A stretch of DNA of 39,166 nt, taken from positions 1 through 39,166 of the forward strand of contig JAKAUU010000032.1 of assembly GCA_021817505.1 (NCBI GenBank), given 5' to 3'. The notes below the pieces were generated by a model. That model was not told the origin of the DNA and made no database searches. It saw only the letters and a list, made by a program, of their open reading frames with translations. Made by a program: the position numbers and the translations under genes. Source of the stretch: Microcaldota archaeon. Its GTDB lineage: Archaea > Micrarchaeota > Micrarchaeia > Micrarchaeales > CABMGC01. Of the stretch, positions 17,311 to 21,283 are shown one piece after another. Position 1 is the stretch's first letter. Each line of letters starts with the position of its first letter.

Positions 17311-17321
17311 CAATTATATAC
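17311..17321 (+). promoter_or_regulatory. TATA box for the C/D sRNA and histone transcript
   Basis: CAATTATATAC lies 20-30 bases upstream of 17341, the point where a C/D sRNA 5' end is expected just before its C box. A purine-containing BRE-like ACCTTTGG precedes it. The spacing fits archaeal TATA/start-site geometry. A second AT-rich element, CATATAATTAAG (17327-17338), is too close to drive the sRNA but could drive a shorter histone mRNA. Confidence 0.5.
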
Positions 17322-17340: not shown

Positions 17341-17391
17341 CAGATGATGAGCTAAAGGTCTGAATCGTGATGACGATCTTGAGTGCTGATT
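17341..17391 (+). ncRNA. C/D box sRNA guiding 2'-O-methylation, predicted target wobble C34 of tRNA-Leu(CAA)
   Basis: All four boxes are perfect and in order: C box ATGATGA (17344-17350), D' box CTGA (17360-17363), C' box GTGATGA (17367-17373) and D box CTGA (17386-17389). The guides are GCTAAAGGT (9 bases) and CGATCTTGAGTG (12 bases), with a 3-base D'-C' spacer, as in compact archaeal sRNAs. The D guide is complementary to CACUCAAGAUCG, which contains a canonical seven-base anticodon loop CUCAAGA (U33, anticodon CAA, G37). The fifth base from the D box pairs with the C at position 34. The D' guide targets ACCUUUAGC, fifth base U; I cannot name that site. Boxes are seen directly; the target is inferred. 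The RNA ends two to four bases before the histone ATG. Confidence 0.88.
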
Positions 17392-17393
17392 AA

Positions 17394-17609
17394 ATGGCAA
17401 AATTATCCAGGAAGGCTATAAAGGAGCTTGTCAAGAGCCATTTCAAGGCAAGGATAACCGATAGCGGAGCGGATGAGATTGCTGCAATACTTGAGAAGGA
17501 AGCTGCAAGGATATCCGCATTTGCCGTGCAGAATGCGAAACACTCGAAAAGGGAGAAGATCACTAAGGAGGATATCGAGAAATATGTTTTGAAGAAGGGT
17601 AGTTCATGA
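17394..17609 (+). CDS. Archaeal histone
   Basis: This is a histone-fold DNA-packaging protein of 71 residues, the single-fold archaeal size. Visible family features are a short first helix, the central RITDSGADEIAAILEKEAAR stretch, then AKHSKREKITKEDIEKYVLK, which matches the loop and last helix of HMf-type histones. The C-terminus adds KGSS only. The gene starts four bases after the D box of the sRNA and overlaps the next gene by ATGA (17606-17609). There is no strong Shine-Dalgarno, so initiation may depend on transcript processing. Confidence 0.95.
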   Translation: MAKLSRKAIKELVKSHFKARITDSGADEIAAILEKEAARISAFAVQNAKHSKREKITKEDIEKYVLKKGSS

Positions 17610-18130
17610 AGTTCTACAGAAGCAGCGATACGCGTCTGAAGAGCGATTTTTATAATGTAAATGGGGAAGAGATATGCTGCCTTGTGGAGAAGACGCAGGG
17701 CGGGATGCTGGTCACGGAATTTAACAGGCGCGGCATTGTCGAGAGACAGGCACACCTTAAGCCGGAGGACTCTGATTACAAGAGCATGTATGAGAGCATG
17801 GAGATAGCAGATTCCGGGGAGTACAGGCTGATTGCAGTAGATGCCAGATGCGCGGCATGCGGCGGAGAGATTTCAAGGGAGCTTGACCTGGTGCATCCCT
17901 CAGTGATAAATGCCGTGCCGGTAGTGCCGATGTATGTCTGCAGGAAGTGCGGAAAACGCCATTATTCGATGACAGAATCATATCTCAGAGATCTGGTTAA
18001 GAGCAAGAAGGAGCTCTTTGAGGAGAGGGACCTTAAGGAACTTTCTGAAGACGAGGGCGCGTTCCTTGGCACTTTGCAGGAATACATAATAAGAATTTTT
18101 GCATCCAAGAAGATTAGCAGGATAAGATGA
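17606..18130 (+). CDS. Zinc-ribbon protein of unknown function co-translated with histone
   Basis: I do not recognise the family. The 174 residues comprise an N-terminal part (1-78), then a four-cysteine zinc site: C82-x2-C85 (DARCAACGGE) and C112-x2-C115 (VCRKCGKRH). A charged helical C-terminus follows (about 124-174) with many K and E. The zinc site resembles ribbons in transcription or translation factors. Its ATG overlaps the histone stop (ATGA), so production is tied to histone, and four bases separate it from the PRC-barrel gene. A chromatin or RNA-related function is inference from context alone. Confidence 0.85.
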   Translation: MKFYRSSDTRLKSDFYNVNGEEICCLVEKTQGGMLVTEFNRRGIVERQAHLKPEDSDYKSMYESMEIADSGEYRLIAVDARCAACGGEISRELDLVHPSVINAVPVVPMYVCRKCGKRHYSMTESYLRDLVKSKKELFEERDLKELSEDEGAFLGTLQEYIIRIFASKKISRIR

Positions 18131-18134
18131 TCTA

Positions 18135-18374
18135 ATGGTTATGATATCTGATTTCTATGGGAAAAAGGTTCTTTCGGTTTCAGGAAAGATGCTCGGGGAG
18201 GTGAAGCAGGTGATAGTCGATATAGATAATGCTTCAGTATCGCACCTGCTTCTTAGCGAGATGAGCAGGCTCACCAAGAGCAGCGACCTGCGCTCCGATT
18301 TCCTCAAGAACAGCATAGAGTATAAGAGAGTAAAGAAGGTTGCAGAGCTCGTGATAGTTGGGGACAGGGCGTAA
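18135..18374 (+). CDS. PRC-barrel domain protein
   Basis: The 79-residue product is a single PRC-barrel, a small beta-barrel found in photosynthetic reaction centre H subunits, RimM and many archaeal stand-alone proteins. The pattern DFYGKKVLSVSGKMLGEVKQV followed by a VDIDNAS turn is typical. It ends with VAELVIVGDRA. The second half holds a basic insert. The gene is the last of the histone unit; ATG 18135 and ATG 18141 are both possible starts. Archaeal single PRC-barrel proteins are implicated in RNA metabolism or, as CdpB-type proteins, in cell division. Which applies here is not visible. Confidence 0.85.
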   Translation: MVMISDFYGKKVLSVSGKMLGEVKQVIVDIDNASVSHLLLSEMSRLTKSSDLRSDFLKNSIEYKRVKKVAELVIVGDRA

Positions 18375-19150: not shown

Positions 19151-19936
19151 TCATTCACCTAATGCTCTTTCCATCAATGATTTAAGCTCATTGTGCTTCT
19201 CAAAAGAAATTTCAACCGCTTCGTTCAGCTCCGGGAGCGTAAAGCCGCCCGCAAGCCCTTTCTGCATTGCGCGTATCTCCTTGCCGTCGTTTGCTATCGT
19301 TATCCTTGAATCCATGAACTTCTCCTCGTTGCCATCCGGGTCTATGAATATCTTGCCTGATGCCTTGGCAAACGTGCATGATGTTATTATGCCGTTTGTC
19401 TTCAGCTTATCTGTCACGCCTTCGCTTATAACCTTATCCCCTTCGAGCTTAGGCATCCTTGCGCTCAGCAGTGCAACTGTTGCCGCCATCGTACCTGCAT
19501 CGAAGAGATTTCCGTCGTAATTCAATACGTATATATCCACGAAGATGTCCCAGACCTTGCCCTCCTCTATAAAGAGAGCTGCCGTATCGATTATCCCTGC
19601 TGCGCGTATTCCCCTGTCTATGACGCGTGCCACCTCTATCGCTTCAGGCGAAGGTGGGCCCATTTCATACTCTGCAGATGCCATCGGCAGAAGTTCCGCT
19701 CCTGTTATCAGGTTGCCCTCATTAGGCTTGTCATGCATAGGCTCTCCGACTGTTATCTTGACGCCTGCAAGCACCTTCGTATTCCCGAAGGTAACCTGTG
19801 CGGATCCCTCCGCATGCTCTATGACTCCTTTTTTAATCTCTATATTCCTGTACTCGTTCAGGGTTCGCCCGAATTCGCGCTTGTTGTTCGCTATCAATTC
19901 CTGTATGAATTCCTTAGTTGCCGATTGTATGTACAT
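19151..19936 (-). CDS. rrp42: Exosome complex component Rrp42
   Basis: This is the inactive RNase PH-type partner in the archaeal exosome hexamer. The 261 residues include the RNase PH-fold segments EIKKGVIEHAEGSAQVTFGN and NYDGNLFDAGTMAA, with the expected length. Rrp42 helps bind RNA while Rrp41 does catalysis. The gene begins four bases after rrp41 and ends one base before the L37Ae start, so the exosome core is tightly coupled. Confidence 0.95.
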   Translation of the reverse strand: MYIQSATKEFIQELIANNKREFGRTLNEYRNIEIKKGVIEHAEGSAQVTFGNTKVLAGVKITVGEPMHDKPNEGNLITGAELLPMASAEYEMGPPSPEAIEVARVIDRGIRAAGIIDTAALFIEEGKVWDIFVDIYVLNYDGNLFDAGTMAATVALLSARMPKLEGDKVISEGVTDKLKTNGIITSCTFAKASGKIFIDPDGNEEKFMDSRITIANDGKEIRAMQKGLAGGFTLPELNEAVEISFEKHNELKSLMERALGE

Positions 19937-19940
19937 AGTA

Positions 19941-20681
19941 TCATTTCTCGTATTTGTCCATTATCTCCTTGTATGGACGCTTTATTGCCTCTTCCTGTGC
20001 CTGATGTATCTCTTTGCCTGATTCTATTATAAGGTTCATCGCTTCCTTGAACTGCTCTTTTGTGAAAGAACCGTCCATCTGGAGCAGCAGGGCCTCATTG
20101 GTCAGCGGCTTCACCGCGACAGGCATATCCGCATCGGAATAATTATCCTCTATCATGTTCAGGTCGAGCACCACCATCTCGCCTATCTTTCCGGCTGAGA
20201 CGGCATACGGGACATCGCGCATAGGTATTCCGGATAGCGCCATGGCGACAGCCGCGGCCGTTATCCCTGCTGCGCGTGTGCCTCCGTCACCCTGCAGCAC
20301 CTCGACGTATATGTCGATCTCGGTGCCTGGGAAGAGTTCAAGCATTACCACGTTCTCGAATACCTCCTTCGTAACCTTTGATATCTCTATCGAACGTCTG
20401 TTAGGGCCCGTCCTTCCGTGCCCTTCCAACGATGAGAACGGCGCCATCATGTATCTGCATTTTATTACAGCCTTTTCAGGATCCGATGTATGCTTTGGCA
20501 GCGCCTCCTTTGGCCCGTGGACAGCGGCTATTATCTTGTTGTTGCCCCACTCCACATATGCCGAACCCGCTGCGTTCTTCACTACGTTCGGCTCTATCTT
20601 TATCGGGCGCAGGTCCGCAGGTCCTCTCCCGTCAAGCCTCTTTCCGTTTATTATTAGTTCTGGTTTTTCTCCTCCTGCCAT
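19941..20681 (-). CDS. rrp41: Exosome complex component Rrp41 (catalytic)
   Basis: This phosphorolytic 3'-5' exoribonuclease also adds tails to RNA. From ATG 20681 the product has 246 residues, the usual length. Motifs: RLDGRGPADLRPIKIEP, GSAYVEWGNNKIIAAVHGP, the arginine-rich GRTGPNRRSIEIS involved in RNA and phosphate binding, and GDGGTRAAGITAAAVAM. The in-frame extension to 20801 overlaps the rrp4 gene and is rejected. The gene follows rrp4 by five bases. Confidence 0.95.
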   Translation of the reverse strand: MAGGEKPELIINGKRLDGRGPADLRPIKIEPNVVKNAAGSAYVEWGNNKIIAAVHGPKEALPKHTSDPEKAVIKCRYMMAPFSSLEGHGRTGPNRRSIEISKVTKEVFENVVMLELFPGTEIDIYVEVLQGDGGTRAAGITAAAVAMALSGIPMRDVPYAVSAGKIGEMVVLDLNMIEDNYSDADMPVAVKPLTNEALLLQMDGSFTKEQFKEAMNLIIESGKEIHQAQEEAIKRPYKEIMDKYEK

Positions 20682-20686
20682 TTTGA

Positions 20687-21283
20687 TTACCCTTTTGATA
20701 GCATTTCCTTTATCCTGTCCGTCAACCCGGATGTATGGGCCTCTTCCTGTATTCTCAGTATGGCATCCATCGCGAGCTGCATGTTTCCTCCCTTGATCCA
20801 CACGACACCGTTATTCCCGACGATTATGTTGCATTTAGTGCTTGTAGTAAGCTCCTTTATCATGTTGTTGCCCTTCCCGAGCACTCTGGGCACCTTCGAA
20901 GGCGTTATCATGAAGACCTTGCCCCCTGTTAGCTTCCTTGGGCGCATAAGGACTACTGTCTGGGTCTTGTCCAGCTCCTTTACCGAAGCCTCTACAAGAT
21001 CGCCCTTATTCAGCTGCTCCTGAACGAATTTCGATATAAGAAGCCCTTTGTAAGGGGAGTTGAGGTTTACGTTGTAGGTGTTGAGCCTGTCTTCCTCTAT
21101 GACTCCGACTACCGTATCTCCGTATGCAGGATGCCAAAGTCCCTCCATAGGTATCAGAATATTCTTTTCGTCGTTGTAAAGCCCTACTATTGTAGAGTAG
21201 GTCTTGCCTTGGTGTACCAGCGTGTTGTGCATTCTGACTGCAGTGTCGCTGAGCTTTTCTCCAGGTATCACTATTCTTTGCAT
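20687..21283 (-). CDS. rrp4: Exosome RNA-binding cap subunit Rrp4
   Basis: Rrp4 caps the exosome ring and feeds in RNA. The 198 residues contain an N-terminal strand domain (IVIPGEKLSD), an S1-like domain (about 60-125, from VVGVIEEDRLNTYNVNL) and a KH-type domain carrying GKGNNMIKELT (about 136-146). It is slightly shorter than many archaeal homologues. It lies between SBDS and rrp41 with gaps of 9 and 5 bases. Confidence 0.94.
   Translation of the reverse strand: MQRIVIPGEKLSDTAVRMHNTLVHQGKTYSTIVGLYNDEKNILIPMEGLWHPAYGDTVVGVIEEDRLNTYNVNLNSPYKGLLISKFVQEQLNKGDLVEASVKELDKTQTVVLMRPRKLTGGKVFMITPSKVPRVLGKGNNMIKELTTSTKCNIIVGNNGVVWIKGGNMQLAMDAILRIQEEAHTSGLTDRIKEMLSKG

Follow-up and report, generated by a model that had tools for sequence, protein, structure and literature searches.

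We consider it very probable that a box C/D sRNA encoded in the Micrarchaeota genome analysed here (G000; 839 kb, 34 contigs, 84% complete) guides modification of the wobble base C34 of tRNA-Leu(CAA), and that it is made as the start of a histone transcript from a single TATA promoter. In what follows, the window is the whole stretch of DNA analysed, 39,166 nt in length. The sRNA locus and the genes downstream of it comprise the following features:

17314..17320 (+): TATA box (TTATATA), located 24-30 nt 5′ of box C; predicted to be the only promoter serving the sRNA and the histone gene
17344..17350 (+): box C (ATGATGA), with the predicted transcript 5′ end within a few nt
17351..17359 (+): D′ guide (GCTAAAGGT), 9 nt; an apparent orphan, not conserved
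17360..17363 (+): box D′ (CTGA)
17364-17366: D′-C′ spacer (ATC)
17367..17373 (+): box C′ (GTGATGA), which holds an ATG in the histone frame, followed by TAA in this genome
17374..17385 (+): D guide (CGATCTTGAGTG), 12 nt; forms base pairs through positions -2 to -11 with the tRNA-Leu(CAA) anticodon arm, placing -5 (G) opposite C34
17386..17389 (+): box D (CTGA)
17394..17609 (+): archaeal histone gene, 71 amino acids, with its start codon 4 nt after box D
17606..18130 (+): protein bearing paired Cys motifs, without a match in Pfam, overlapping the histone stop codon and kept downstream in the order
18135..18374 (+): PRC-barrel protein, the next gene in the same direction

The sRNA (17344-17389, plus strand) is complete, with perfect C, D′, C′ and D boxes in order. 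The spaced box pattern, allowing up to three mismatches, occurs only once in the window and in none of 100 dinucleotide shuffles, which bears out the boxes and spacings that the initial annotation had listed for a complete C/D sRNA. A search of the window against Rfam returned no model matching the sRNA. Two proteins of the C/D RNP are encoded in the genome, namely fibrillarin (e-value: 5.9e-78) and Nop5 (e-value: 8.9e-53). The single-strand fold of the sRNA is no better than that of shuffled sequences. A terminal stem closing the C/D k-turn was rejected, as the flanks of boxes C and D neither co-vary nor show complementarity across 87 loci, and 427 of 500 shuffles are equally good. The terminal stem is an accessory feature, which is short and often poor in archaeal sRNAs.

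The tRNA-Leu(CAA) gene, one of the 38 tRNA genes found, is located elsewhere in the assembly (G000:C2:3645-3742). Within its anticodon arm (G-ACUCAAGAUC-U), the ten contiguous bases ACUCAAGAUC pair with the D guide without a gap, and guide position -5 faces C34 in agreement with the N+5 rule, so that the target base proposed in the initial annotation holds for the tRNA of the same genome. A non-pairing tRNA-Leu(CAA) arm had been named beforehand as refuting this proposal, and it is against this check that the ten-base duplex was obtained. The core of the guide scores 10/10 against tRNA-Leu(CAA), a score reached by none of 150 shuffled guides when compared with the rRNAs and the tRNAs found. 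The pairing of all 12 guide bases, as it had also been put forward, needs trimming: ten bases pair, but the two outer bases of the target (5′ C and 3′ G) mismatch the tRNA. The exact 12-nt target (CACUCAAGAUCG) is absent from the genome apart from the complement of the sRNA itself, and the pairing is therefore read as 10 bp. On the basis of this complementarity, the sRNA should guide the 2′-O-methylation of the wobble base C34 in tRNA-Leu(CAA). In bacteria, Cm34 is introduced at the same nucleotide of the same tRNA by the protein enzyme TrmL, which differs in that its recognition is protein-only, without a guide RNA.

Several irregular tRNA genes were observed in this genome. An insert in the T arm that looks like a non-canonical intron (L036, positions 101-198) causes ARAGORN to miss tRNA-Leu(CAA). 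Another gene missed by this program, which reads as tRNA-Arg(UCU) (L038 from position 101; G000:C7:33611 onward), also has a T-arm insert resembling a non-canonical intron. Furthermore, box-C-like motifs (ATGATGA/TGATGA) are found in the introns of tRNA-Met(CAU) and of an ARAGORN-called tRNA-Ala(UGC), the latter reading better as Ser(UGA), and these introns (L029 and L037) might themselves be guides.

The D′ guide varies between genera and ranges in length from 8 to 13 nt. Compared against the rRNAs and tRNAs it has no credible target, with the best score (8.0) being reached by 32 of 150 shuffles. A 23S rRNA site (GCCUUUGGC), which would involve two G-U pairs, has this score and was rejected as no better than shuffles. 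The rRNA search suggested in the initial annotation thus ended at chance level, leaving the D′ guide as an apparent orphan. C/D sRNAs that target tRNAs usually combine one tRNA guide with one orphan guide (PMC7994747).

A search pattern consisting of the boxes and a loose guide core matches 66 of the 79 genomes of the family, with no matches in the reversed control, and 122 of 301 genomes across the phylum. With a sequence model built from 32 of the pattern-matching genomes, the sRNA is found in 150 of the 164 genomes of the order, representing 51 of its 54 genera; seven genomes of the family lack a match to this model, two of which (G051 and G058) are >90% complete. Guide positions -2 to -11 are identical in 87/87 aligned loci, an invariance that is partly built in, as most of positions -3 to -9 were prescribed by the search pattern, with -2, -10 and -11 being free. 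Outside this core, both flanking positions vary: -12 between A, C and G, with a rare T, and -1 between G, A and T. A further 20 loci, detected by the model after the pattern had failed to match them, have the same ten guide bases; in most of them the C′ box is changed, and one, the locus of G055, combines an intact guide core with an altered box D. Much of the sister family has a degenerate C′ box together with an intact guide. On the target side, the tRNA arm ACTCAAGATC is found in 142/164 genomes of the order and in all 51 of the good ones. The predicted guide-target pairing is strongly supported by this conservation, and the invariant 10-base core with its free ends reads as an evolutionary echo of the limit of 10 substrate bases reported for C/D guides (Yang 2016, as cited in PMC7089733).

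A single real alteration of the core was seen, in genus g16 (G027 and G028), in which the guide reads GATCTTTAGT and a U faces C34. The tRNA is unchanged and the boxes and histone linkage are kept, and the guide may be dead in this genus. The two loci (G027:C32:1114-1162 and G028:C25:10307-10357; L159 and L160) represent natural variants with U at position -5.

The gene downstream of the sRNA encodes a protein that, when searched alone, scores 20.8 bits, just below the Pfam PF00808 cut-off of 21.4, while a profile of 12 relatives matches the HmvA, HMfA, HPhA and HMfB histone structures with e-values down to 9e-11. Two other histone-fold genes are found in the genome, and the leader-bearing histone is therefore one paralogue. 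The histone gene lies directly 3′ of the sRNA in all 68 pattern-found loci of the family, with the contig ending inside the histone in two of these, and in 37/37 loci examined in the second (sister) family of the order. In G050 and G055 this histone gene is present without the sRNA in front of it. The sRNA appears to constitute the 5′ leader of the histone gene throughout the order. By contrast, the histone follows the sRNA at none of 31 loci outside the order, several of which have this guide within a C/D frame next to different genes. The guide thus extends more widely than the histone linkage, which is order-specific. Loci in other families of the class (L112-L141 and L186), several with full C/D frames, were observed to have the tRNA-Leu(CAA) guide core next to unrelated genes. 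The gene order 3′ of the histone, comprising the Cys-rich and PRC-barrel protein genes, is also conserved; linkage alone is therefore no proof of coupling, and the association of sRNA and histone may simply be an old operon. Elsewhere in the window (19151-21283), three minus-strand open reading frames resemble archaeal exosome subunits (two RNase PH-like proteins and Rrp4), as judged from their translations only.

An alignment of 87 related loci, anchored at box C, shows an A/T content of 97-100% at positions -29 to -25. A BRE-like, A-rich (purine) signal precedes this at -34/-33, and a further block of A/T spans positions -11 to -7. The TATA box keeps a constant position with respect to box C rather than to the histone start, and its spacing places the predicted transcription start at box C or within a few bases of it. 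The distance from box D to the histone start codon is 0-19 nt (83 loci), which leaves no room for a second promoter. Given the upstream TATA box and the absence of space for another promoter, the sRNA and the histone gene are predicted to share a transcript. The sRNA would then represent the first ~46 nt of the histone transcript, initiated from the TATA promoter just 5′ of box C. Its D guide would form a 10-bp duplex with tRNA-Leu(CAA), in which fibrillarin would 2′-O-methylate the wobble C34. Each primary transcript would have one of two fates, namely C/D RNP assembly with trimming to the sRNA, or translation as histone mRNA. As a further and weaker inference, C/D RNP assembly on the leader may limit histone translation.

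The ATG within box C′ raises the alternative that the conserved element is protein-coding and specifies an N-terminal extension of the histone (M-x-I-L-S-A-E/D). At 36 of 83 loci, this ATG shares the reading frame of the histone and no stop codon intervenes. Furthermore, in three genomes (G202, G214 and G215) no ATG, GTG or TTG from which a full-length protein could be made lies 3′ of box D and ahead of the histone fold. Their only usable full-length starts are the C′ ATG or a TTG in the guide, and in these genomes the RNA predicted to act as the guide would also be translated. Histone frames whose sole full-length start codons fall within the C/D sRNA are found at loci L173, L175 and L176. 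However, the C′ ATG is out of frame in 40 of the 83 loci and stopped in seven, including the present genome (MTILSAD*), so coding is not what keeps the guide constant. Positions that would be synonymous never vary, and box D and the match to the tRNA are left unexplained. The peptide-coding reading was rejected on the frame counts, the stop in this genome and the invariant synonymous positions, and we consider it extremely unlikely.

A second alternative is that the element acts mainly in cis, with L7Ae, or a C/D RNP, bound to the k-turns repressing histone translation, and the guide being secondary or lost in places. The short distance between box D and the start codon, the shared transcript predicted from the promoter position and the retention of the boxes in G027 and G028, although their guide mismatches C34, would all agree with such a role. 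There is also a precedent in Sulfolobus, where a 5′-UTR k-turn mediates the repression of the L7Ae mRNA by its own product (Daume 2017, PMC5539422). The two systems are alike in having a k-turn in an archaeal mRNA leader near the start codon, but in Micrarchaeota the leader consists of an entire C/D sRNA with two guides, the tRNA guide being conserved, and is located before a histone gene. The match of ten invariant guide bases to the arm of one tRNA is not accounted for by a k-turn, and neither are the presence of this guide next to different genes outside the order and its persistence in the sister family where C′ has degenerated. A mainly cis-acting leader is in our view improbable.

The remaining alternative accepts the RNA and its target as set out above and differs solely in denying any coupling: an ordinary tRNA-Leu(CAA) guide borrows the promoter of the histone operon, and the linkage is inherited without regulatory meaning. 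Archaeal C/D genes are often located at the ends of open reading frames and mature wherever they are transcribed (PMC7994747), the genes 3′ of the histone are conserved as well, and in the other families of the class the guide has unrelated genes as its neighbours. Overlaps at the 5′ end are, however, reported as rare (7%) and as lowering downstream expression (PMC7994747), yet here the arrangement is kept in approximately 50 genera before a gene for a chromatin protein. We regard this account as being about as likely to be right as wrong. The stronger proposal of a bifunctional transcript, serving as either guide or histone mRNA, in which RNP assembly would gate histone synthesis and couple wobble modification to chromatin across the order, is put forward tentatively, as a possibility that we consider somewhat doubtful.

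The preferred reading, of a C34 guide made at the start of the histone transcript, has partial parallels in other archaea. A C/D sRNA for C34 of tRNA-Leu(CAA) has been predicted in Pyrococcus (Omer/Gaspin 2000, as reviewed in PMC7994747); the P. furiosus prediction is also listed in PMC7668247, where Cm34 is described as seen in some tRNAs, those named being tRNA-Met-i and tRNA-Trp. The Pyrococcus and Micrarchaeota sRNAs share their class, the target base by the N+5 rule and the combination of one tRNA guide with one orphan guide, but differ in that the latter forms the leader of a histone gene. C/D sRNAs that overlap the 5′ ends of open reading frames have also been described (Tripp 2017, as summarized in PMC7994747), and 11 C/D sRNAs are located in 5′-UTRs in T. 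kodakarensis (PMC4247193). As predicted for Micrarchaeota, sRNA and mRNA lie on one transcript, but these are described as scattered cases in single species, whereas the Micrarchaeota pairing is kept through an order. A search of open-access titles and abstracts for histones together with box sRNAs yielded no report of a histone gene with a C/D sRNA leader, and no open-access paper was found that treats Micrarchaeota together with box sRNAs. The guide class and its target are thus known, while the conserved histone leader, with its putative regulatory coupling, is new.

The locus adds to a poorly studied archaeal phylum an RNA gene that has no Rfam match and has a matched target in the same genome, and the guide RNA is kept as a histone leader through some fifty genera. 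It raises the testable question of whether RNP assembly on the leader chooses between the coding and non-coding use of one transcript. We suggest that the histone-leader arrangement could link tRNA modification to histone production in these archaea.
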